From Dioscorea cayenensis subsp. rotundata (taxonomy: Eukaryota; Streptophyta; Magnoliopsida; Dioscoreales; Dioscoreaceae), in contig NC_052476.1 in the NCBI RefSeq assembly GCF_009730915.1, positions 20,751,257 through 20,815,256 of the forward strand: a DNA stretch of 64,000 nt, written 5' to 3'. Below are positions 3,886-42,317 of this stretch, piece after piece. Within the stretch, counting starts at the first letter, position 1; each line of letters starts with the position of its first letter. The notes under the pieces are model-generated. The model had not been told where the DNA came from. It saw nothing but the letters and a program-made list of their open reading frames with translations, and made no database searches. A program made the position numbers and the translations under genes.

Positions 3886-6800
3886 ATGGATGACTTGCCT
3901 GGCCTCCTCGCCCGTGATTTTGGACTCCGTCCAAAGGGAAAGTCTGCACCGATGGCCCCGCCGGCAGGATCCAGCCGATCCCGCTCTGGATCCACCTCAG
4001 AAGGCGTCTTCGGAGGCCCTCCTCGCTTCTCTCAGTCCCGATCTCCTCAATCATCCGACTCCTCGAAGGCCTCGTCTTTGCCTGTCTATGATAAGCCTGT
4101 TTACGATGACGATATCTTTGATGGGATCCCTGGAATGAAGAGCTCGACCTCGGCGAAGTACGATGATGTGTTTGCTTCGAATGGGTCGGCTGGGTTTGAG
4201 GCGCTGATTCCGGGATTTGGAAGGAGTAGTACACTACAACGGAGGTAATTTTCGAATCAATTGGATTTGAGAAATGGATTATTTGTGTTATGAATTATAA
4301 AGTTGCAATTTTTTTTATTTTTTATTTTGATTTAGTAGTGATTTCAGTTCTCATTTCATTCTATCTGCTCTCTTAGGAATACACATATGATTTGAAAACC
4401 TCTTATATGAACTCCTCCCATGATCCCATCTCTTGCTGATGAATGTCTGGCTTGCTATTTGATCAATGCAACTTGTATGAATTCTCTATGCTGATTTCTT
4501 TGTCATTCTTTCCTTTTTGGATGTGAAATTCTATGGTTCTGTTTGGTTTGAGGGATGTTTAAATACAAACTTGTGTTTTTTGTGTTTGTTTTGAGAGCTC
4601 AGTTGAGATTGGACAGAGTCACAGAGATGAAGACATCCCTCCATTTTTTCGAAGCCGTGTTTTTGTTCCTTGATTTGTGGAGGTGGTCTGTCCCTATTTC
4701 TCAATATTCCACCATTTGGACATCCACCTCCCCCATCCCTCCATATCTCCTTACCAAACACTACCTGAACGGTTGTAGTGTAGAGCTCCATAAATGTAAC
4801 TCAGTAACCTAACAAGAAACTCACGTCTATGTCACTTATTGTTTATGTATTTTAGTCCATCACAATGGACTAGTTGCCTTAGAGTCAAAGAAAGTAAATG
4901 AAATCTTATTAGGCAAAAATGTGTGCTTTGAATCTTTCTGGTAGATGTACTTTGAAACATTACTAACTGAAGATCATGCTGATACATTATGACCATCTTG
5001 AGCATCATGTGCAGAGCCTCACTAGTTAAAAGACTGCACAAAGCTCCAAAGGCCTTGACATGCTAAAGCCTAAACATATTTGAGGCATTCAAGATGATGT
5101 CACATAAAATAGCTACATAAATTATTTTTATTTTTACTACTTATTGAAATTTCTATGAGTGAAAGGCCTTGATTATTGCCCAGAACATCGACTGAAACTC
5201 TTTTACATTTTCTTACACTGGAATTTGATTTCATTTCTCCTTTTTATGAGGTTGACACCAAACAACCAGCTATATGCTGGTTGTTGTTTAAGAAGAGTTA
5301 TTATTTCGTTTTATGCCAATCTATCTTTGTCCAGGAACCAAACAGACTTCTTGCACCTAAGATAATATTGGACATGTCAAGCAGTCTACCGCCTTTGATA
5401 TGGCACTCTTACTCTCTTTCCGTGACAGTAATCTTTTCATTTGACTAGTACTATTACTTGGCCTTTTTTGGAAAATATTCATAACATCCAATTTAACTGT
5501 TTTGTGTCAAATCTTAGTGGCATTTGTTAGTAACTATTCTTGTCAAAGTGTAAGTTATTGTTATTTATTTTCCAGTAAGCTGCCAGAGTCTAACTATCAG
5601 CGAACATCAGTTCCAAGCTCCAAATCAACTTCAAATGCGACTGGCGATCCTTTTGTAGTCTTAGAAACATCTACATCAGCAAATTCAACCTCTGGGTTAT
5701 TTACTGACCCTTTGGAGCAGATTAGCAGTCCTATGCGCTCTGGAAGCACAAAGATCAATGCTTCTCCTGCCAGTGGAGGGTTATTTGATGATGTTGATGC
5801 TTTTGGCGTCTTCAAGAATTCAACTCCATCATTTACATCAGTAAAGAAAGAAAATGGGAAAGCTGACAGTCATCTAAATACTGTTCAGAATATGGCCCAT
5901 CTAGATCCTTTTGCTGATTTAGAACAACATACTAAACCTTCATCCAAGATATTTAAGAATGCTGTACCTAAAATGCGTTCCACTGATGGTAATCTAGAGA
6001 AAAATCACATGGTTTTTGAAAAGCCTAGCAAAACTCCTAATTCTTTTGAAGACATTGGCAGAAGTCGTTCCTCAAGTTCAGAGGGCAATGTAAAACATTG
6101 TGAAAGAAATGTGACCGCTGGTCTATCTCATAAGTTGAATCAACATTTGGAAGCGGCAGATGATGTGTGGCTCAATGTTTCTGAAATCCCTCTCTTCACC
6201 CAACTTACAAGTGCCCCTTCACCATCAAGACCGCCACCTCCACTGGATCTTAAACACACATCTACAGGAAAAGCAAGTCAAAATGCATCCCTTGGTATAA
6301 ATTCTCAAGGAAAACATAACAGATCATTTGATCAATCCAGTCAAAGTTATGAAAATTCTATGCGGAATTCAGGTGCATCACCTATAGAGGAACTTGAAAC
6401 TTTTGCTATGGGCAGGCTTCAAGCCTTTGCTAATGGTCATGCGAAATTTATTTACAATGAAGACAATTTTGAAAGAAAGTCAGCTGCAGAAGCATCTGCT
6501 GCTGCTATGAAGGAGGCCATGGATAAAGCTGAGGCCAAATTCAAACACGGAAAAGGGGCAAGGGAAAAGGAATGCGATGCAAGACCGGCTAAAAGCAGAG
6601 AGACCACAGATCAAGAAAGGCATGGCAAAACAATACCTGATCCATTGGATTTTGGATATCATGAAAAAGAACAGAGAGAAAGAGAAGAGAAAGAGAAGAA
6701 AGAAAAGAGACTTGAAAAGGAGAAGGAACTAGAGCATGGATGGGACAGGGAGAGACAAGTGGTGGAGAGGGCCAGAAGAGAGGCACAAGGAAGAGCAGCT

Positions 6801-17295: not shown

Positions 17296-18151
17296 ATTAA
17301 ATAGCATGGAAAGAAAATCCACGTAAAATAATAGTGGCGTATTATAAAATCCCATATATATATATATATATACTGTTCAAGCACCCAACTCTAAGATTAA
17401 CATGCAGTTTAGACGAAAATAAAAAATTACCTCCTAGCAAAGATACTTCATACATCTTTTTAATGTCAACTAAAAGATTTTATAAAAAAAATTAAACAAT
17501 AACATTTTCTCTTCGCAATAAAATTATAATATTTATAAAAAAAAATTAAATCTATGTCAAACAATAGTAATGTATTTTAAAATCTAAAAAAAAAAAATTA
17601 TACTTCGAGCACCAAATCTTAAAAACTACATCCGTGCAAAAATACTTATATATATATATATATATTCAACTAAAAAAATAAAGAAATTAAAAAGTAAACC
17701 ATAACATAATCTCCACCCTCCATTTGCCTCCCAAAAACCCAAAAAAACACAATAAAATCTCTTCTTTTTTTTCTTGTCCCTTGAAAAGCATAAAAAGCCT
17801 AATCCTATCATTCCTATGCATTATTTCACAGGGTATAATCAGACATTTTCAGATAATCAAATCATAAGTCAGCAAAATATATAAAAGGAACAGACCCACA
17901 ACAAAAGGAAAAGAGTTCCTTTTTTAGTATCATATGATTCATATCTCATGTTATACAACATGCCATAATGAATAAATAAAGTCATCACGGTCATCCTAAA
18001 TAAAAACCAGCAAAGTAGTTAGTAATTAATAACTAAAAACTTCCCAATTAATACATAATTGTTCCTAATTGTCTCAGTGCCCCAAAACAAAGCTAATTCA
18101 ATAGAGTCATCATCTTTTAATTGCCTGCAGCTTCAACTTCTGGGATCAATC

Positions 18152-20455
18152 TCAATTCTCTGCGGTACCAATTTCTTGACTGCCCTCAGGTTTCGCCTGT
18201 CAAAATAAGAAACAATCATTTAAAAAATTAATTCATCGCACAATATATATATATATATATATATATGATAATATGTTTTCTAGGGACGTCCAGCTGTTAT
18301 TTCATTACTAACTCCAGAGATGGGTTTAGTACAGGATTATATTTTTAACAAAACCATTAGATAATGATCTAATGGTTGTTGTGGGACGACCTCCCTAAAT
18401 TACCGGTCTTATATATATAGATAAAAATAAGTGTGGCATTTGATCATACAGCAGGGGATCTAGAGAGTGATCGGCTCTTGCTCCGAGCAGGGCTCTTGCT
18501 GGGTCGTTTGTTGCGAGGGGGCTGCAAAACAACTGGTTAGGTGGACATTGAAGTAAAACAACAAAAAGATTGGCAATAGAACTTACGGAAGCAACAGGAG
18601 ATCTGGATCGGGATCGGGATCTGCAAAAAAAGTTCCAGAAACAAGAGAATTCAATAATCCACAACTTTGGCTTTTAACGCCTTGATCCAAAAGCACCGAG
18701 GCCACTTCCACGTTGGATATAACCGCAGAGGAAAGCACAAATGTGAAACCATAAAAGTTCAGCAACACCATTGTTTTAAAACAGAATGAATTGGTAGTAA
18801 TTTCTAAAATTTGAACAGCTACCAAGGGCCAATATTCAAAAGAAGAAATAGTGACAAGTATATCATGTAAATGAAGCTGTGGCTAATGCAAATAAACTTA
18901 AGGTGCAGAAGTTATCCATATTGAAGTTATCTCTAACTGTACCATTTAATTCCACATCACAACTCTCCTGGGAGCAATGCCTATTAGCAAGGTGAAATTC
19001 CCCTATCGCTGACTTGCGCATTCCAATTCCACTTAGTTCACTGTTATCCAGCGCTTTAAAAGCAATCCATCCCTTCTATTTTTCTCTCATTCCGCTCCTA
19101 TTGGGATTAGGCGTAATACACAAAGGTATGACAATCATGGTAAGTTTTGGTTTCCAAAGCTGCTCATTTGTGAAACAGCATACCTCACACAACCAAGGAG
19201 CTCTATCCATTTCCATTGTATCCTGATCAAGTTCCTAAAATGCAATCCCCAGATCGCCGCATAAGCCCTTATCTAAAGATAGAAAGAAGGAAGCATTAAA
19301 ACATTGACATAATTGGACAGTACGGAAAATCTGTGTGCTCAACGTGGCTCTTACAGGACCATCTCAACTGGAATCATGCAGGAATGCAGATACATAGCAG
19401 GAAAAAAATGCCAAAAGAGATTGATTAATGCATCATGTCCTGCCATACTGAACACATAGAGCCATGCAGAAGTGACCCATCAAAACAAGTTGCACAGGTA
19501 TACTTCTCAAAACTCAAAAGTCATCAAATAAAAATAAAGTACATGTCCATAGGATCTAGAAAGCTTCTCAATCACATAAAATTACTTGGAATAATAATAA
19601 CAAAATAGCAGTTTAAAGGACTCAAATAAGAATGAAGTCCTTTGTTAGGTCACAGACTTTCAGAGTTGTTGATAATGGCTCTAGTAAATACTTGGGGACA
19701 AGACTTCATCTTGTATCTAATGAACAAGCTACATATTGTAAGCAATTCATGCTCAAGTAAATACTCAAGAGTTTCAGAGTTGTTGATAATGGCTCTAGTA
19801 AATACTTGGGGACAAGACTTCATCTTGTATCTAATGAACAAGCTACATATTGTAAGCAATTCATGCTCAAGCTTGGATTTTCACATCTAATTGAACAGAA
19901 TAATTGTATCAGGATCCATAGCTATTTTAACTACACAAAAGCCTCTAGAACTAGAAAGACATAAAGATGTAAAAGAGATGACAAGGCATACCCTGACAAT
20001 GACGGTCCCCTTGACCCTGAACGGGAACGTGAAGCAACAGATCTAGAACGAGATTTAGACCGACGTGCCGACTTAGCTTTTGGAGATTTGCTGTATAACA
20101 AATTTGCACAATGTAGGACAAGTTTTCATCCTTTCAAATCCGACCAGATAATGAAAATTAGATATAAACCAGACCTCTGACTGCGACTGCGACTGCGGCT
20201 GCGGCTGTTACTACGACTTCGACTTCTTGAGTAGGAACGGCTGCGACTGCGGCTCCTGGATAAACTTTGTTTGTACTCCTTAACCTGACGCAAGAAGAAA
20301 AAAATACTTACACTTTTCCATCAAAAATATCAAAGACAAACCATAAAAACCAAAACACATCCAAAAAAATATAAGTTATTGTACTCTGATATATGCCCGA
20401 GAAAATGCATTACGGAACTCAGAGTCATCAAGTTTCCTGATCTGCAGCAAACAAA

Positions 20456-20487
<32 letters not shown>

Positions 20488-23341
20488 CAAAGACCTAAAT
20501 AAGTTCCATTAACATTCATTGGTTGAGCAAGAAATTCAAACAAAACCAACAGAATATTAGCAACAAACCGCATATTTCATATCATCATAGTTTGTGTAAT
20601 CAACAATTCCTACAGTGCCTGCAATATACCAAGACAAAAATAGGATTGCATTTAGCACAGCTAATATCGCTTTTACAAAGAGAAATTGTCAGCTGATCTG
20701 CTTGATACACAAGAAATAATTGAACCAAAATAAAATACTAAAATTGGCCAAACCAAAAGAAATGTTCCTCTCCTTTCTCACAAAAAAACAATCTGTAGAA
20801 ACCAGATTCCTTTTCTGTACAAACTTATGCAGTTAAGAAACTAACCATACCTACATAAGTCTTGAAAATAAAGAAACAAGATGAAATAAAGGATGGATAT
20901 AATGCAGTATACCTCCAGACTCACTAAAAACTTGGGAGAAGCAAACATCACCAGCTAAACGCATATGGTCCTGAAAATGTGAATGAACTAGAAGTAAGCA
21001 TAACTAAATTGCACAATAAAAGGTTACAATAAGATAGGAACTGACAAGTGCAACTGATATGTTCATATATATATAGGGAGGTGTTTAATTCCTAATAAAA
21101 AAGCAATGTACTTGAAGTCGCATGGGCACTGGATATGTAGGAACTCAGAGAACATTTTGTATTAAACTCCAAATTCGTACTTGGTTGAAAGTAGGTTGCA
21201 ATACCATGTCCCATTTGAGATACAATTATAATGCCACATCTCCATTGTTGTAACAGATTAGTTATTTAAACAAATATAATTGCCACAAGCAAGATGAGCA
21301 TCAACTGAGTTGCATCACTGTAACCCACCCATATAAAGCTAAACATAAGAATGTAGTACATGGATCATAAACAGCACTATAGTATTTAAGAAAATCTGCT
21401 AGAAGGCTACCTTTAGGTCTTGCCATGAAGCTGAGGACGGAAGCCCCGTAACCCTAACTGAAAGCATACCGTGTCAGTATACAGAAGACTAGAACAACAC
21501 ACAAATATTCCTCAACAGGTATACATAAACATACCACGATATTCTGAGCGCCTAGAAACACCACCTCGGCCACCCCCACCACCTCTATAGCTATGGCGGT
21601 CAATTGAAGAAGAGTGTCCTCTTCCACCATGTGCAACTTCCACCTGCACAATAAGCAAAATCCCAAGATGGAAACAAACTCAAAATATATATATATATAT
21701 ACAGGAAAAACAGAGGACAGCAAAGGCATCAAAACCTTAATTAATGGTTCATTGAATATAGCCTTACCCGCAATCTGTGACCATCAAAGTTATAGCCATC
21801 CCGACCACGAATGGCATCTTGAGCATCCCGTGCCTCTTCAAACTATCACAAAATACAAACAGTCATATTACTGTATACCAAAAGACATGAGATACTGGTT
21901 CCTAAAAAAACATAAAATGACTGTAACATGCTCCTATTATGTGCTTCTATCAAACATAAGCAATTTAAAAAGGCATTAACAACTGTGATGCAATGAGAAT
22001 AGATTTTCTGTCTAAATCATAAACTGTAGTTCCATTGATTGCCTGGCAAAGTGCAAAAAAAGACAATATTGCCATGAGGAAGACTTCGTTTAGTACATTA
22101 TGTTGGAGAACAAAATTACCTCAATGAATGCATAACCTGGAGGCCTTGGTGGAACCTTGAGATCAATATCAACAATGGGTCCATACTGCATAGTAAGACA
22201 TGGCCAGATCAGCAAGCACATCCAGAAGTTTAAACAAATGAAAACAAAAAAATAAAAAAATAAAAAAATAAAAAAATAATCAATTCCCTAAAACCATAGC
22301 ATGGCACCAGAAAGTTAAATAACTATGATATTATTATTTCCAAACAAGTACACCATGCTCACCACTGTACAAAGCAAGAGATCTCTACTCACCTTTTGCA
22401 GTTAGAGACATGTTAACATGATTCTGAAACATTTTACTGAAAATAGGTTCAGAAATATTTTCCAAAAACAGCAGCCCCAGACAGCCATTGCTTACCATGT
22501 GTTAAATTCTTTGAGTTAAAATTTCAGGGTCAAAGAACCAAAACTTAAGTCAAAGTGGCATTAGGAAGTCCATTTAAGTAAATGAAGCGTCAAAACGGGT
22601 GGCATACAAACCACAACTTTAACAAGACGATGGAAGTTGTGAAGCGATTTTGCCATAATTATTGGTTGAAATGGCAGAGACAAAACTAATCCAGAATGGG
22701 AAGGTAAGAAGATTTCTCAAGTAAAAAATAAAATAAATTAAATAAGCAAATGGCATGATCTAGGAAAATGCATTCCTCCAAGGATGCAATTAACATCCAT
22801 CATAAATTGAACTATTAAAACATTTGACTCTGGAGAATACTCTGCAGGACAAGTCGATGCCAGATGCCTTAAAAGTGAAACCCTGAACAATTCACTAACA
22901 AAACTCCTTGTAAAAAAATGATGGACAATTGGTGAGCATATTTTGGGTAGTACAAATGGACCACAGTTCATGAGGAACATCTAGGTATCTTCATTTCTAA
23001 AAGTTCTGCAAAAGGATGTTTATCTGAAACTGTCCCTATTTATAAAAATATACATTCTCACAAACACCAAGAAATCAAATGCATAAGACTCTCCTCAAGG
23101 TCATCCAAAAATATGAGTGAGGGCATGCCTAGAACATCAAAAGAAACAGATCCCTAAAAGTGTTTAACGTGGAATTTAAACTGATGAACCAAATGCAAGA
23201 AAAATCAAAAAGACTAAGGCATCACAATATAGATGAATGAAAACAATAGACCTTGTGAAACAAATCCTCAACTTCCCTCTCACGGATATCACCCGGGAGG
23301 TTCCCAACATAAATGGTTCGGTTGCTTCCGCGGCTACTCAT
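18152..23341 (-). CDS. SR34-type serine/arginine-rich splicing factor (SF2/ASF-like)
   Basis: Thirteen coding exons on the minus strand: 23341-23252, 22185-22120, 21842-21768, 21643-21535, 21457-21411, 20970-20913, 20618-20569, 20441-20385, 20284-20175, 20090-19992, 18620-18587, 18521-18450, 18196-18152; 303 residues, the same length as Arabidopsis SR34. RRM1 has IYVGNL (RNP2) and GYAFIEFE (RNP1). A Gly-rich linker leads to RRM2 with the invariant SWQDLKD heptapeptide that marks SF2/ASF-type proteins, then an RS domain of many SR dipeptides. Family members select splice sites in the nucleus and regulate their own pre-mRNA. If the last intron is not spliced, GTA-TGA ends the protein at 18444 (290 residues). 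A leader intron (25840-23347) contains a tandem repeat array. All phases close and no defects were seen. Confidence 0.92.
18197..18449 (-). other. Terminal intron of the SR gene with (AT)n and a small foldback element
   Basis: Splicing GT (18449) to AG (18197) replaces an immediate TGA with a 14-residue tail (ends GTAEN). The intron contains (AT)n at 18244-18266 and a foldback stretch at about 18280-18398. Its ends read TAGGGACGTCC and, inverted, TAGGGAGGTCGTCC. It also has a perfect 11-bp hairpin, AACCATTAGAT / ATCTAATGGTT (18352-18377, 4-base loop). Both 3' ends are plausible; which one is used is not decidable here. Confidence 0.55.
19658..19871. repeat. Exact 100-bp direct duplication in SR34-like intron 10
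   Basis: Copies at 19658-19757 and 19772-19871 appear identical over 100 bases, separated by a 14-base spacer (period 114). The duplication is inside the long intron between the tenth and eleventh coding exons. Identity implies either a recent duplication or an assembly artefact. Confidence 0.9.
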
Positions 23342-23346
23342 GCTTT

Positions 23347-25840
23347 CTGCATCAATTTACCACATAAAATAAGACAAAGAAATGTTACACTGCAATGCAA
23401 AACAACCAAAAGAAGCCAAACTTTCATCAAAACCAACAACCAGCATCCTACGTTCCCTATACAAATTTAAAGAACATCCACACTGCAGCCTCTGAAAAAA
23501 AGAAGTCGAGGAATTAAAAGTGGGGAACAAATAATCACACAACCATCAATTTGAGCTTGCACCCCAAACATACAAAGAAAAAGAGAGTTGGTCATGCAAA
23601 GCAACCATAAACAACCCAACTCAAAATTTGAAAGAAACACTCAACCATCAATTTGAGATTTTGCCTCAAACAAAAACCCAAAAAAAAAGCTAATCACACA
23701 AAACAAGCAACCCAAAACAATATTAAAAAGAATAAAAAAATCCACACTCCATATCCCAAAAAGAAGGGTTTTAAAGAAGAAAAACAACAGTAATCGCCTA
23801 ACCAACACAAAAATTTCCACTAATTACACAAATCGAGCATAAGCTGCCAAAAATTTTGCAGCAAAAATCAACAATCATGACTAAAATCCTAAAAACCCAG
23901 ACATGAATTTGGATCCTCAGTGGTCTCAAAAGCACACCACAGAAACAGGCATATTACAAATAAGAATTAAAATCATGTGGCTTGATTCATAATTTGCAAA
24001 ATTCTTGCAACCATACATCAACCAAGACCAAAAAAAGAAAGAAAGAACCAAAAGGAGAAAATAACTGGAATCACAACTAGAACACAGTGAATCAAGATAG
24101 GAACACAACGCCATGTGGTTTCATGCATTATCTAACCAAGCATCACCCAACACAAACAAAATAAATAAATAATACAATTAGAATGACAACAAAACCCCAA
24201 AAAAAACCAGAAAGGACCAGAATACCAGGTGCCCTCAGAATCAGACTTCAACGAGCCAACATTAATACTAAAGTTGACAACCTGTGACTTGATTTATTAG
24301 TTGTCAATACCTTGCAACAATGCACACAAACATTTAAAAATATAACAACAAAAAAAAAAGTATAACCACTGAAACCCTAGAAATCCAGAAACACAACATT
24401 AAACTAATCATAAATACTCTGGAGCTTGACTCATGAAAAATATCTGAAATTTCAATCACCATTCATTTAAACAATGGATTCTGAGAGACAGGAACACCAA
24501 GAATCACAACAAAAACACTGGAAATCCATAAATACAACTTCAACACAGAGAATCAAAGCTCTAGTGCTCGATTCATGGAAATATAGATGAGATTTTAATC
24601 ACTGCTTACCTTAACAATAAATTGTAAGAGACAAGAACTCCTAGGATCACAACTAAAGCCCTAGAAATCCATAAATATGACACTAACACCAATAATTGAG
24701 ACTCTGGTACTTGATAAATGGAAATAGATACAAGATTTAGATCACTACTTACTGTGGCAATAGATTCCAGGCGACAAGGACACCAAGAATCACAACTAAA
24801 ACCCTATAAATCCAGAAATACGACATAAACAGTAGGAATCAAGACTCCAGTGCTTGATTCATGGAAACATACATGAAATTACGATTACCACTGAGCTTAA
24901 CAATGGATTCCAAGAGATAAGGAACACCAAGAACCACAAATAAAGCCCTAGAAATCCAGAAATACGAAAAATCAAGATTCTAGTGCTTGATTAAATAGAA
25001 ATATATACGAGAACCCTAAAAATCCAGAAATACAACATTAACACTAAGAATCCAGACTCCAGAACTTGATTCATGGAAATATACATGAGATTACGATTAC
25101 CACTCAGCTTAACAGTGGATTCCAAGAGATAAGGAACACCAGAACCACAAATAAAGCCTTGGAAATCCAGAAATACAACATTAACACTGAGAAACAAGAC
25201 TCTGGTGCTTGATTAAATAGAGCCCTAGAAATCCAGAAATACAACATTAACACTGAGAATCAAGACTCTGGTGCTTGATTAAATAGTAATATATACGAGA
25301 ACCCTAAAAATCCATAAATACGACATTAACACTGAGAAGCAAGACTCCAATGCTTGATTCATCAAAACATACATGAGATTATAATTACCACTCAGCTTAA
25401 CAATGAATTCCAAGAGGTAAGAACACCAAGAACCACAAATAAAACCCTAGAAATCAAGAAATACGATAATAACACTGAAAATCAAGACTCTGGTGCTTGA
25501 TTAAATAGAAATATATACGAGAACCCTAAAAACCCAGAAATACGACAATAACACTGAAAATCAAGACTCTGGTGCTTGATTAAATAGAAATATATACAAG
25601 AACCCTAAAAATCGAGAAATACAACATTAACACTAAGAATCGAGACTCCAGTGCTTGATTCATGGAAATATACATGAGATTACGATTACCACTGAGATTA
25701 ACAGTGGATTCCAAGAGATAAGAACACCAAGAACCACAAATAAAGCCCTAGAAATCCAGAAATACAACAATAACACTGAGAATCGAGACTATGGTGCTTG
25801 ATTGGATAGAAATATATACGAGATTTCGATCATCGCTTAC
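23347..25840 (-). other. Leader (5'UTR) intron of the SR34-like gene
   Basis: Minus-strand acceptor TTGATGCAG at 23347 leaves AAAGC before the ATG at 23341. The best donor is CAAG|GTAAGCG at 25840/25841, just inside the GC-richer first exon. The intron is about 2.5 kb. Its upstream half is a tandem array (listed separately); 23350-24240 is AT-rich and A-rich on the plus strand, without coding signal. Long leader introns are common in plant SR genes and usually alternatively spliced. Confidence 0.65.
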
Positions 25841-25850
25841 CTTGACGATG
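24300..25850 (-). repeat. Tandem repeat array, about 143-bp unit with 67-80-bp subunits, covering copies of a splice donor
   Basis: A landmark CCCTAGAAATCCAGAAATAC (with variants) recurs near 24375, 24516, 24659, 24802, 24946, 25013, 25155, 25222, 25302, 25443, 25522, 25602 and 25744. Spacing is about 140-147 for full units and 67-80 for partial ones, so about 13 copies. Many full units include a segment matching the end of leader exon 1 (GGAATCCATnGTnAA) and the adjoining intron start. On the minus strand strong donors survive at 25840 (CAAG|GTAAGCG), 24752 (CACA|GTAAGTAG) and 24609 (TAAG|GTAAGCAG); other units have lost the GT. Confidence 0.85.
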
Positions 25851-26010
25851 GATTCCGGGAGGCGATAACCAGGGAACAATGGCTCGAGACCGCGAGGGTT
25901 TTGAGGGTGCGAGATTTGTCACTTGTGAAACGGATGATGGGATTATATTGAGGGTGGAGAGACACGTGTCTATGAATAACTGGGCCGTGCTGGGCCAACT
26001 TTGAGCCCAA
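25841..26010 (-). promoter_or_regulatory. Leader exon and proximal promoter of the SR34-like gene
   Basis: GC-richer segment directly upstream of the leader donor. It contains a perfect palindromic G-box GACACGTGTC (25961-25970). Further upstream are repeated TGGGCC/GGGCC motifs (25980-26008), typical of TCP-bound plant housekeeping promoters. The transcription start is not determined. Confidence 0.5.
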
Positions 26011-27163
26011 GTCCACATTATACCAGAAATTGGGTTCTATTTATAAATTTTTAAAATATTTCAAACTATTTATATCACGTTCATAAATACAAATCATACC
26101 TGGAAGTCACCATGACTGGTGGGTGAGTGATGAAATATCGAACCCCTTGTGCTAGAGTACTATACAGTGCTTTGCAAACATACTATAGAACTAATATATT
26201 GATACTGTTTGTCTACTATTTACAGAGATCTTTTGTGGAATGAGTCCGTATTGTCCACTTCTCCAGTGTTGCAAAAACACAAGATTTACTATTATGGGGT
26301 TATAGTCATTGAAATATTATATTGGACACGCATAACAAGCCTTAATTGCCCCAGTGTTAGATAGCTCAATATGGTAAATTTTTAAGGGGCCGTTAAGCCA
26401 TAACTGGTATACCACTGTATATGTCTGTCCCTTTGACATCCTATTATAGGGTAGCGTTTGTTGCTTTTGTCAAAAATAAATAAATAAATACATCATAAAT
26501 ATACAATTTAGTATATAACTAACTCGGTGATTTAGATAAGTTATTTTGAATTTTAATGATAGTATAGGTGAAAAAACACTGTAAAGAGAAATCTATTTTT
26601 TTTTTTAATAATACTCGCAGATGTTTAATTTAGAAACAGTGACTCTTGTAATGTTGGAAAAATAAATTAAAATTTAAATAATTTTGGTAAAAAAAAGTAT
26701 CATTTTCCGTAAAAATAACAAACAACCTTAACCTCCTCACCATCAAATATTTTTTTTTAATAACATAGTCAAGTTATTTGCAACTATTACCCATACAAAT
26801 TATAATAATAATAATTTCATAGCTCCAAATCAAGATGAAAAAAATACAAACATATTTGTTTGAAGTGATGAAAGATCGGGTTTTAAATAGATGATTTTGA
26901 GTTTAAATCATTGTGTATACAAAAATAACATTAGTTGAAAAGACATATGTTCTTTTATACAACTCCCAGTACTTTGTTCTAAGAACTAGACTAATTTATA
27001 GCGTGTTGTTCCTGAAAATACTATAAATTAAAGATAAAAAAAAACGAGAGAAAGTATGTATATATATATAACAATATTTATATCCAAATTTAGATGTTGA
27101 AACACAAGTACCAAACAATTAAAACATTCATAAACCATACAAGAAACAACATAACATCATAGT
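26011..27163. other. AT-rich intergenic region with a possible A-tailed retroposon
   Basis: From about 26095 to 26490 the base composition is more even than the surroundings, and the stretch ends in TTTTGTCAAAAATAAATAAATAAATA. The nearby stretch at 10870-11175 also ends in an A-rich tail after a TTGT-type motif. This could be a SINE or LINE 3' fragment, but no protein or target duplication was recognised. The remainder is AT-rich with short A and TA runs and the 3' flank of the STIG1-like gene. Confidence 0.35.
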
Positions 27164-27592
27164 TCATAGATCACCACCACCATAACCACACAATCCAAAA
27201 CTACATTCAACCTTATGAGGACAAACATGATAACAAGAGCCACAATGCAAAGGATCATTCTCAAGACTAGTGCACCTACCACCACAACATGCAAGTCCAA
27301 ATCCACACTTAAGGCCACATTCCCCACAATGTTGTTCATCATTCAATACATCCTTGCAAAACCTATGAAAACAACAAGTGTAGTTCTCTTGCCAAGGTTT
27401 GTTTTCCATATACAACAAACACACACTTGTATCATCGAAACAAGGCCGGCCTCTCCGGCCTCGCACCGCCGCCCGGAGAAACCCTGAGCGTGTCACCGGA
27501 GTTGCGGCTTCTCCGTCTATCATTTTGATCATGTTGAAGATCAAGCAAGTGAGGAGAAAACATGAGAGAACTTTGGTGATGGTAGTAGGCAT
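27164..27592 (-). CDS. STIG1-like secreted cysteine-rich protein
   Basis: Single-exon gene of 142 residues. The first about 28 residues are a hydrophobic signal peptide (VLSCFLLTCLIFNMI). The C-terminal two thirds is Cys-rich with the STIG1-family pattern, including HCGECGLKCGFGLACCGG, HCGSC and CGYGGGDL. Stigma-specific protein 1 relatives are secreted to the extracellular matrix; tomato STIG1 binds pollen receptor kinases, and other members act in stigma exudate control or stress. Length (about 140-155 in the family) and lack of introns fit. The start is the only ATG giving a signal peptide. A TTATAATAA box lies about 60 bases upstream. The tissue of action is not shown by the sequence. Confidence 0.9.
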   Translation of the reverse strand: MPTTITKVLSCFLLTCLIFNMIKMIDGEAATPVTRSGFLRAAVRGRRGRPCFDDTSVCLLYMENKPWQENYTCCFHRFCKDVLNDEQHCGECGLKCGFGLACCGGRCTSLENDPLHCGSCYHVCPHKVECSFGLCGYGGGDL

Positions 27593-28623
27593 GAGATCAT
27601 TTTGAGATTGTTCTTTGTTTGAGCATATATGGATGTTTATCCTGGGTTGGTTTATTATAATGTGGTGGGTTTGGGAATCTTTTAACTACTCTATGCTTCC
27701 TCTCCAATGAACTTAATTTTATCAAGAGTTAGTAGCATTAGGTTCTCCAAAACAAAGATATTCCTAGTTTTATATATATATATATATATATATTTATTAT
27801 TATTATTATTATTATTATTTTTCAATAGGTGACAAATAGCCCAATTTAAAAGGTGGATGATTCATTAATAGAAGTTGTTAGTTTTGCTTTTTATATATAT
27901 ACATATACATATTTGATGAGAATTTTATAATCAGGAGCTTACATTATAATATCATAATGAAAGTATAAATTTTTTCATTAAAGGGGGTTTTAAATTTGAT
28001 CAAATAAAATTGGTTCAAGCTGTAGAAATTTGAGTGACTAAATCAATGATTTTGACTATAGTTTGTTAAACATATAAAACAATCATTAATGGAAAATCTA
28101 AATTAATGAAAAATATTTGTTTTAATTTATACAATTTTCGTTCAACTTAAAATTTAGATATTTAATTAATCATCTTTTGAGTTTAATGATTAAATTAATA
28201 AAGATGCTTTATTCATCAACTAGTAAATGTAACCGAAAAGATTAAATATTATCATTATTATACTTCATAAACACGGATTGTGGTTTTTAAAGCCAAAAAT
28301 TGAAATTAAATAAGAGAAATTTTTTTTAAAAAAAAAAAAAAAAGTTGACTTTGTTGATTTTGAAGTTTATCAATATTTTTATGATAAATAAACCACGTGT
28401 TAACGTTACATTGGTGCTTTTGTGTGGATGTCTCACCCAATAAAAATAGGACACGTCACAATGAAACTTTAGTTGCTGTTTGTTTCCATACATTGGATCC
28501 AACGGTAAACACCGCGTGAAACCTCGACCTCCTCGTTCTGTCTATAAATATCATGCCTAATTTTTCTTCTTGATTTTGTGAAAAAATTTATAATCGAAGG
28601 AGAAATCTCGAATCGAAGTGAAG
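27593..28623. promoter_or_regulatory. Divergent promoter region between STIG1-like (-) and HIG1-like (+) genes
   Basis: Shared upstream region of two divergent genes. It has (AT)n followed by (ATT)n at 27774-27820 and AT-rich DNA to about 28370. A CACGTG G-box lies at 28394-28399 and an ACGTCAC-like element near 28449. A clear TATA box, CTATAAATA (28542-28550), sits about 75 bases before the HIG1-like ATG. G-box-type elements are common in stress-responsive promoters; regulation by stress is inference. Confidence 0.5.
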
Positions 28624-34440: not shown

Positions 34441-34478
<38 letters not shown>

Positions 34479-35330
34479 TGAGGACTGAACATCCTATAGA
34501 TTTAAAATTTAGAAACACCCACAATATTTATTATATAGTAATTCAAAGTTAGATTTATTCATAAACAATATTAAAACAGTGTCAAACTATGTTACACACT
34601 GATAATAAAATAGTAAATTTATGCGGTATTAACATTGAAACCATGAATATCTTTAATTAAGATATATTTCATATATATATATACATGAGGACGAAACACC
34701 CTATAGATTTGAAATTTAGGGACACCCACAATATTTGATGTATAATAATCCAAAGTTAGATCTATTAAAAAATAATAGTAAAATAGTATCAAATAGTATT
34801 ATACAGTACTCATAGCAATATATTTATACAATATTAATACTAAAACTATGAATAATTTTAATTAAGATATATTTCATATATATATATATATATATATACA
34901 TGAGGATGGAAACACCCATAGATTTGAAATTTAGGGACACTCACAATATCGGTTGTATAGTAATCCAAAGGTAGATCTATTCATAAATAATATGTATAAT
35001 ATCCAAATATCTCTCTTCTCTTTTGGTTATTTTACTTAAAAATACGTCTCACTAATCCCTCTACTTTTGAAATGACTTAATTTAGTCTCTTTATCTTAAT
35101 TTTTTCGCATATAGTCCTTCTACCTTGAAAAATACAGTCAATAATTGGTCTATTTTAGAGTAGAAAGGACTAAATAGAACCATTTTCAAGTGACAAGAGT
35201 AGAGGGACCAAATAGAAAGATTGAGAAAAATAGAGGGACTAATTCGGGTATTATATCTAAATAATATTAAAACAGTATCAATAGTATTACATAGTAATTA
35301 TAAACAATAAATTTATATAATATTAATATA
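34413..35330. repeat. Three-copy tandem repeat of a 205-229-bp unit
   Basis: Units begin at about 34413, 34642 and 34847 with ATGAATAnnTTTAATTAAG, then an (AT)n tract, GAGGAnnGAA, CCTATAGATTTnAAATTTAG, GACACCCACAATAT, and a tail with AATAATATTAAAACAGTATC. The tail of the third unit is displaced to about 35258-35330 by an inserted element. Confidence 0.85.
34994..35257. mobile_element. 264-bp Mutator-type MITE with 10-bp target-site duplication
   Basis: The flanks carry the identical 10-mer TAAATAATAT (34984-34993 and 35258-35267). The two intact neighbouring tandem units have only one such site (CAATATTAAAACAG, ATAGTAAAATAG), so they act as empty-site controls. The ends are inverted: GTATAATATCCAAAT on the left and GATATAATACCCGAAT read from the right. 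Internally, CACTAATCCCTCTACTTTT on the left matches an inverted AATTAGTCCCTCTATTTTT on the right, so the element folds back. A 9-10-bp duplication points to the Mutator superfamily. No coding capacity; it needs a transposase supplied elsewhere. Confidence 0.8.
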
Positions 35331-41317: not shown

Positions 41318-42317
41318 NNNNNNNNNNNNNNNNNNNNNNNNNNNNNNNNNNNNNNNNNNNNNNNNNNNNNNNNNNNNNNNNNNNNNNNNNNNNNNNNNNN
41401 NNNNNNNNNNNNNNNNNNNNNNNNNNNNNNNNNNNNNNNNNNNNNNNNNNNNNNNNNNNNNNNNNNNNNNNNNNNNNNNNNNNNNNNNNNNNNNNNNNNN
41501 NNNNNNNNNNNNNNNNNNNNNNNNNNNNNNNNNNNNNNNNNNNNNNNNNNNNNNNNNNNNNNNNNNNNNNNNNNNNNNNNNNNNNNNNNNNNNNNNNNNN
41601 NNNNNNNNNNNNNNNNNNNNNNNNNNNNNNNNNNNNNNNNNNNNNNNNNNNNNNNNNNNNNNNNNNNNNNNNNNNNNNNNNNNNNNNNNNNNNNNNNNNN
41701 NNNNNNNNNNNNNNNNNNNNNNNNNNNNNNNNNNNNNNNNNNNNNNNNNNNNNNNNNNNNNNNNNNNNNNNNNNNNNNNNNNNNNNNNNNNNNNNNNNNN
41801 NNNNNNNNNNNNNNNNNNNNNNNNNNNNNNNNNNNNNNNNNNNNNNNNNNNNNNNNNNNNNNNNNNNNNNNNNNNNNNNNNNNNNNNNNNNNNNNNNNNN
41901 NNNNNNNNNNNNNNNNNNNNNNNNNNNNNNNNNNNNNNNNNNNNNNNNNNNNNNNNNNNNNNNNNNNNNNNNNNNNNNNNNNNNNNNNNNNNNNNNNNNN
42001 NNNNNNNNNNNNNNNNNNNNNNNNNNNNNNNNNNNNNNNNNNNNNNNNNNNNNNNNNNNNNNNNNNNNNNNNNNNNNNNNNNNNNNNNNNNNNNNNNNNN
42101 NNNNNNNNNNNNNNNNNNNNNNNNNNNNNNNNNNNNNNNNNNNNNNNNNNNNNNNNNNNNNNNNNNNNNNNNNNNNNNNNNNNNNNNNNNNNNNNNNNNN
42201 NNNNNNNNNNNNNNNNNNNNNNNNNNNNNNNNNNNNNNNNNNNNNNNNNNNNNNNNNNNNNNNNNNNNNNNNNNNNNNNNNNNNNNNNNNNNNNNNNNNN
42301 NNNNNNNNNNNNNNNNN
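41318..42317. other. Assembly gap of exactly 1,000 N
   Basis: An unbroken run of N from 41318 to 42317. The round size indicates a placeholder gap, so the real distance between the GCP4 fragment and the following sequence is unknown. Apparent open frames across it have no meaning. Confidence 0.99.

Follow-up and report, generated by a model that had tools for sequence, protein, structure and literature searches.

A tandem array across the 5′ splice junction of a predicted leader intron in a yam SR34-type gene: probable intron growth with decaying decoy donors

The SR34-type gene and its predicted leader intron

The window analysed here, a 64-kb stretch of yam DNA, carries on its minus strand a gene whose translated exons encode two RRMs and a Gly-rich hinge, with SWQDLKD in RRM 2, followed by RS-coding sequence (Table 1). 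Pfam RRM_1 matches the protein in two stretches (E 1.1e-30). SWQDLKD in the second RRM is a mark of the SR34/SRSF1-type family, and the subfamily name is based on such sequence marks. By the two RRMs, SWQDLKD, and the RS region, we classify the encoded protein as an SR34/SRSF1-type SR protein; the translated exons and the Pfam matches thus bear out an earlier note on this DNA, which had called the gene SR34-like. The gene model was placed by eye, and its weakest own donors (20385, 20569, and 23252) may be misplaced.

Upstream of the coding exons, we predict a leader exon (exon 1) and a leader intron whose last base, at 23347, lies 5 nt upstream of the ATG. The exon 1 region contains no ATG (25841-25960) and has a GC content of 0.54 (25841-25940); a TATA-like ATTATATT at 25942-25949 and a CACGTG at 25963-25968 were read from the sequence. 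The leader intron is presumably spliced from the donor at 25840 to the acceptor at 23347.

Other features of the window are (i) a STIG1-like gene on the minus strand (27164-27685; Pfam Stig1, E 9e-18), upstream of the SR34-type gene; (ii) a 114-bp segment that is near-perfectly repeated at 19654-19871 (1.9 copies, 99% matches; Tandem Repeats Finder) toward the 3′ end of the SR34-type gene, past its first RS-coding exons; (iii) a second tandem array at 34454-35001 (period 207, 2.6 copies), which is not near the SR34-type gene; and (iv) 1,000 N in a row at 41318-42317 (gap or masked).

Organization of the tandem array

The leader intron is largely occupied by a tandem array of 13 head-to-tail units, 8 long (approximately 143 bp) and 5 truncated, which spans 24353-25869 and contributes 1,488 bases to the predicted intron, itself 2,494 bases long. 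Tandem Repeats Finder, a repeat search, and nhmmer detected it alike. An nhmmer profile of the eight long units found all 13 units on the minus strand, each with an E-value of 1.7e-13 or better; the 8 long units, having built the profile, match by construction, whereas the 5 short units are independent of it. Beyond the array, the next nhmmer match in the 64-kb window reached an E-value of 0.57 only. The landmark spacings are 143, 80, 78, 143, 79, 66-67, 142-143, 68, 144, 143, 143, and 141, and Tandem Repeats Finder divided the region into a 143-bp array (24368-24967) and a composite 301-bp array (24968-25823; 2.9 copies, 86% matches). The short units lack the exon-derived and donor part, because the profile match begins in them only at position ~47 or 65. 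The earlier note had described about 13 repeats, with 143-bp and partial units, at 24300-25850 within the leader intron: the repeat count and unit sizes agree with the nhmmer units and the spacings, and the location in the (predicted) intron is supported, with the limits corrected to 24353-25869 by nhmmer.

Homology among the units ends sharply at ~25870, which is within leader exon 1 and ~30 nt upstream of the leader donor. Upstream of this point, the ungapped identity of U1 to the seven other long copies was 0-0.4 over 5, 10, and 20 nt, and the gapped local scores of five copies were reached by a fraction of 0.12-0.87 of shuffled sequences; the nhmmer profile match also starts at about 25870. 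Since homology starts inside exon 1, the unit spans the junction of exon 1 and intron 1, as the earlier note had held in describing it as the 3′ end of exon 1 plus the first intron bases. The array is thus a tandem duplication across a splice junction, the exon itself being predicted.

At the downstream end, two weak profile matches lie past 24353, one of 5.4 bits at 23870-23904 and one of 3.8 bits at 24066-24097. No score above 1.5 bits arose in 40 shuffles, yet both matches cover one T-rich stretch of the unit only. This stretch scores 3.4 bits once in the intron of the closest paralog (described below), and blastn aligned 23845-23893 with that T-rich place in the paralog intron (76%, E 5.5e-4). 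The T-rich match may therefore be a piece of the old intron and not a degenerate unit.

The array has no copies elsewhere in the 584-Mb genome according to two DNA searches, which ignore very common words and score the best candidates only: a 1,551-bp query over the array matched itself alone, and a 261-bp query covering U1 together with exon 1 matched 13 places, all within the array. Rfam yielded 0 matches at the gathering score over 17500-27000, and thus no match to an intronic structured RNA (snoRNA and the like).

Table 1. Features of the SR34-type gene and the tandem array (window coordinates; the slash in splice sites marks the junction).
Feature	Position	Strand	Remarks
SR34-type gene, exons 2-9	20385-23346	-	ATG at 23341; placed by eye and translated; Pfam RRM_1
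SR34-type gene, exons 2-9 and acceptor of the next, RS-coding exon	20285-23346	-	
Leader exon 1, non-coding, without ATG	25841-25915	-	putative 5′ end
Predicted leader intron, 2,494 bases	23347-25840	-	donor AAG/GTAAGCG, acceptor GATGCAG/AAAGC; layout shared with paralog L023
Tandem array, 8 long and 5 short units	24353-25869	-	Tandem Repeats Finder, nhmmer, spacings
U1, last 29 nt of exon 1 and first ~115 nt of intron	25726-25869	-	leader donor at 25840
U2	25583-25725	-	GTAAG replaced by CTCAG; weak GTG/GTAATC at 25689
Two short units without exon-derived/donor part	25425-25601	-	nhmmer envelopes 25510-25601 and 25425-25523
U5	25282-25424	-	GTAAG replaced by CTGAG; weak GTG/GTAATT at 25388
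Two short units	25138-25300	-	nhmmer envelopes 25214-25300 and 25138-25221
U8	24994-25136	-	GTAAG replaced by CTGAG; weak GTG/GTAATC at 25100
Short unit	24926-25013	-	nhmmer
U10	24782-24924	-	GTAAG replaced by CTCAG; weak GTG/GTAATC at 24888
U11	24639-24781	-	moderate donor ACA/GTAAGTA at 24752
U12	24496-24638	-	full-strength donor AAG/GTAAGCA at 24609
U13, downstream end of clear array	24353-24495	-	GTAAG replaced by ATGAA
Hypothetical 51-nt cassette leader exon, without ATG	24610-24660	-	acceptor-like TTTCTAG/GGC (24661) to donor 24609
Hypothetical 51-nt cassette leader exon, without ATG	24753-24803	-	acceptor-like TTTATAG/GGT (24804) to donor 24752

Donor sites carried by the units

Donors were scored with a PWM of approximate Arabidopsis frequencies rather than a trained matrix, and the U1 duplex energy served as an independent check. 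The leader donor at 25840 has a PWM score of 6.34 and a U1 duplex energy of -9.5 kcal/mol. The donor at 24609 (U12) has exactly the same values (6.34 and -9.5 kcal/mol); by PWM it exceeds each of the gene model's 8 internal donors, and by duplex energy 7 of them (their ranges are -3.73 to 5.31 and -3.4 to -10.8, respectively). The donor at 24752 (U11) reaches 1.76 and -7.2 kcal/mol; it is weaker than the leader donor because position -1 is A. Among the 7 extra long copies, therefore, 1 ties with the leader donor, 1 is weaker, and 5 have no GT, so that two potentially competing 5′ splice sites, 25840 and 24609, are of similar strength. The donorless U2, U5, U8, and U10 carry weak GTG/GTAAT sites 7 nt downstream of the lost donor (PWM 2.01-3.07), and U13 carries an ATG/GTGATT site (PWM 1.31). 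Three strong donors had been listed in the earlier note; their places and letters are right, and so is the strength of 24609, but 24752 is moderate. Its statement that the other copies had lost the GT holds for 5 of the 8 long units, whereas the 5 short units lack the segment altogether.

The GC content over 50 nt changes by 0.20 at 25840, 0.00 at 24609, and 0.14 at 24752. Because this step falls as low as 0.02 among the donors of the gene model, sequence context is no bar to the use of 24609 or 24752. In favour of 25840 as the donor in use, it precedes the others and lies at a GC-rich exon edge; the donor at 24609 lies in T-rich, intron-like sequence.

Paralogs in the same genome

A protein search of the genome returned 26 matches at E <= 0.001, including those of the gene itself. 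The closest paralog, on C7 (L023), is 93% identical over exon 2, and has a TATA box, a short exon without ATG, a leader intron predicted at ~768 nt, and, before the ATG, the acceptor GTGACAG/GAAAC. This similar layout supports the leader-intron model of the window gene. The leader intron of L023 contains no tandem repeat, the sole Tandem Repeats Finder row at the locus lying upstream of the gene. Since 44 of 88 aligned codons differ at the third position between the two SR34-type genes, the paralogs probably diverged long before the array arose, and comparing them is of little help for dating it. The candidate leader donor of the paralog (L023:4907, GTG/GTAATC, PWM 2.01; higher-scoring GTs lie deeper, at 5195 and 5388) is identical, over its 9 letters, to the weak sites in U2 (25689), U8, and U10, and these weak sites can therefore not be called dead.

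Two further paralogs, on C1 and C11, are in our assumption SR30-like, and they seem to have long leaders too. The unit profile found nothing significant in the three paralog loci (best E 0.076, outside the leader). Of the four genes compared, only the window gene thus has the array.

Two observations concern the SR30-like genes themselves. L024:5060-5500 and L025:3851-4278 share a leader stretch right after an acceptor-like TTTATGATAG site, and this stretch opens with a similar short reading frame; as the differences are even over the codon positions (8, 7, and 5; 36 codons), it is a conserved leader rather than a peptide. At L025:5063-5477, between the first and the second coding exon, a 203-bp segment is tandemly duplicated (two copies, 91% matches), which is another intronic tandem duplication in the SR gene family.

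Decay of the duplicated donors

The donor is among the less conserved segments of the unit. Across the 8 long copies, the pairwise identity of the donor 9-mer is 0.643 against a mean of 0.764, and only 3 of 120 windows are lower (2 of 120 when U1 is left out); when the four-copy clade described below is collapsed, 7 of 120 9-nt windows are lower than or equal to the donor 9-mer. When identity to U1 is the measure, the donor 9-mer stands out less (0.651 against 0.742, with 92 of 120 windows higher). The GT is retained in 2 of the 7 extra long copies, and the mean over all dinucleotides is 3.8. Compared with 6,233 scored GTs from both strands of the window, the donor-like ones among the 139 array GTs, with the U1 donor left out, number 1 (0.4 expected) at PWM >= 6, 1 (1.32) at >= 4, 4 (2.7) at >= 3, 7 (5.8) at >= 2, 12 (19.6) at >= 0, and 2 (3.46) at a dG <= -7; they are therefore near the background, slightly above or below it depending on the cut-off.

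An unrooted tree of the units places the donorless U2, U5, U8, and U10 in one clade (bootstrap 96), with U13 weakly beside it (52). This grouping indicates that donor loss happened once or twice and that the donorless sequence then multiplied. Three of these four copies, together with the short units, fall within the 301-bp composite repeat, so that the amplified sequence is largely donorless. We simulated neutral decay forward on the unit tree, with GTAAG assumed at the base and gene conversion among copies ignored. A mean of 4.5 of 7 copies kept the GT; the probability was 0.21 for at most 2 of 7, 0.58 for at least 2 copies with GTAAG, 0.24 for all four copies of the clade being without GT, and 0.12 for GTAAG in both U11 and U12, the last being unremarkable but not nil evidence. 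Because the simulation reproduces the counts, neither purging nor upkeep is needed, and losses and survivors alike are unremarkable. Neither the conservation windows nor the simulation revealed preservation of the donor relative to the surrounding unit sequence.

The earlier note had proposed a ladder of competing donors. With a donor segment that is less conserved, amplified units that are donorless, GTs near background, and a good fit of neutral decay, this proposal does not stand as the main account; a regulatory ladder is possible but is not the interpretation that we favour.

Discussion

Several readings would give the array or its donors a role. Under a dose-sensitive autoregulation, high SR34 would move the leader donor from 25840 to 24609 or 24752, and the outcome would be a leader of ~1.2-1.35 kb carrying 18-19 upstream ATGs, a drop in protein or NMD, and thereby negative feedback; counted from 25960, the leader exon would measure 1,208 nt with 18 ATGs to 24752 and 1,351 nt with 19 to 24609, against none up to 25840. 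Where 5′ splice sites compete, SF2/ASF (SRSF1) classically activates the intron-proximal ones. SF2, as Krainer reportedly found in 1990, activates proximal 5′ splice sites. Given that activity, this autoregulation is attractive because SR34 is counted as an ASF/SF2 ortholog (PMC4598772), and the SR34/SRSF1-type identity of the gene and the equal strength of 25840 and 24609 are in its favour. According to the same source, several plant SR genes autoregulate via PTC isoforms (PMC4598772); the family is the same, and here the site would be the leader. Nevertheless, the donor segment is among the less conserved, full strength is found in only 1 of the 7 extra long copies, the units that amplified are without donors, and the array is absent from the closest paralog, so that we regard autoregulation of this kind as quite unlikely. 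It is very doubtful that the distance by which the leader donor shifts downstream, along the tandem copies of the gene's 5′ splice site, serves as a readout of the SR34 protein level; if it did, array length would set the feedback gain. Cryptic cassette leader exons may also be envisaged, in which the acceptor-like TTTCTAG/GG of one unit would pair with the donor of the next, giving occasional inclusion at no coding cost. A T-rich tract ending in TTTCTAG/GG or similar passed an acceptor-like filter in 12 of the 13 units (14 sites in the array), a filter that 5 of the gene model's 9 acceptors also pass, and a 51-nt cassette exon without ATG is therefore conceivable before each of the two surviving donors. 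The filter is, however, a loose measure of T-richness rather than a trained model, and the segments look rather like intron sequence (over the 50 nt that precede the donor, GC is 0.34 at 24609 and 0.44 at 24752); we consider such exons unlikely.

We also counted motifs in the array. GGA, an SRSF1 core motif, is somewhat frequent: it occurs 21 times against 13.8 expected, a count reached by 7 of 300 shuffles in a test that repeats bias toward significance; GAAGA is absent, and so is AATAAA (0 against 0.26 expected). A promoter-proximal repeat could act through intron-mediated enhancement or through AACCCTA, presumably a telo-box-like element, which is found 7 times on the plus strand of the array and 0 times on the minus strand. 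In keeping with such a booster, the array lies within ~1.6 kb of the putative start, and on the sense strand GATYT occurs 16 times against 8.3 (1 of 300 shuffles) and CGATT 3 times against 0.8 (18 of 300). Intron-mediated enhancement by repeated TTNGATYTG has been described (PMC6760150). Like that system, the yam gene has repeats in a promoter-proximal intron; unlike it, TTNGATYTG is missing, with 0 occurrences in 1,488 array bases (0.24 expected from shuffles) and 0 in the other introns tested. CGATT, moreover, occurs 4 times on the antisense strand, the five consensus motifs of PMC8157754 number 0 each on the sense strand (0, 1, 1, 5, and 1 on the antisense strand), and repeats inflate motif tests. 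A booster is thus very unlikely, and the tests of intron-mediated enhancement motifs, AACCCTA, AATAAA, GGA, and GAAGA gave no convincing functional signal in the array. If transcription instead started inside the array, the array would be upstream or promoter DNA and its donors would never compete. We give almost no credence to such a start: the TATA-like box and CACGTG lie upstream of exon 1, the exon is GC-rich, free of ATG, and followed by a strong donor, and paralog L023 is built in a similar way, with a TATA box, a short exon, a leader intron, and an acceptor immediately ahead of the ATG. This arrangement of elements and the paralog layout make it unlikely that the array is promoter DNA.

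The array is probably the product of intron growth by tandem duplication across the 5′ splice junction, largely neutral, with one strong and one moderate decoy donor. A starting 143-bp segment, running from ~29 nt before the end of exon 1 across the 5′ splice site to ~114 nt inside the intron, would have been tandemly duplicated, and unequal exchange and deletion would later have given rise to the 8 long and 5 short units. Being situated downstream of the original donor, the extra copies would normally be spliced out together with the intron. Growth of the leader intron from roughly 1.1 to 2.5 kb would be the chief consequence, and the duplicated donors would be passengers, most of which decayed, while 24609 looks fully usable and 24752 moderately so. 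The donor at 25840 is most likely the one used, so that the array would be spliced out as intron and the copies would be inert. We infer that the extra donors are rarely or never used and that the array has no dedicated function. Several observations count against a neutral reading: 24609 has the score of the leader donor, acceptor-like tracts lie upstream of the surviving donors, the small GC steps are no bar to donor use, GGA is somewhat frequent, and GTAAG in both U11 and U12 has a modest probability under neutral decay.

Intronic minisatellite arrays consist of head-to-tail units and exhibit a composite higher-order repeat and deletion-derived short units. The yam array resembles them in these features, but differs in that its unit holds the gene's own 5′ splice junction. 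The closest published case that we found is the potato RdRp gene, in which one tandem duplication over a 3′ intron-exon boundary made a new spliced intron (PMC4974935); the first intron of this gene also has an 83-bp tandem duplication that left the gene structure unchanged. As in potato, a boundary-crossing tandem duplication in a plant carried splice signals along, and the yam array is of the same kind at the opposite boundary. It differs from the potato case in its repeated duplication, its position at the 5′ boundary of a leader intron, its larger number of copies, and the apparent lack of a new intron. In the Rogers AGGT tandem-duplication model, as outlined in PMC4974935, a new intron is made from exon; tandem duplication multiplies splice signals in both, whereas the yam copies remain inside an existing intron. 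Among the titles listed from an open-access library, none dealt with an SR gene whose leader 5′ splice junction forms a tandem array.

The locus would be a clear case of a leader intron enlarged as the 5′ splice junction at its start was tandemly duplicated, the copied donors decaying in grades, and the gene encodes a factor with an influence of its own on the choice of 5′ splice sites. If 24609 is used, the gene would be a natural construct for testing dose-dependent donor choice; if it is unused, the locus would show how a plant gene tolerates a perfect decoy 5′ splice site lying 1.2 kb deep in the leader intron.
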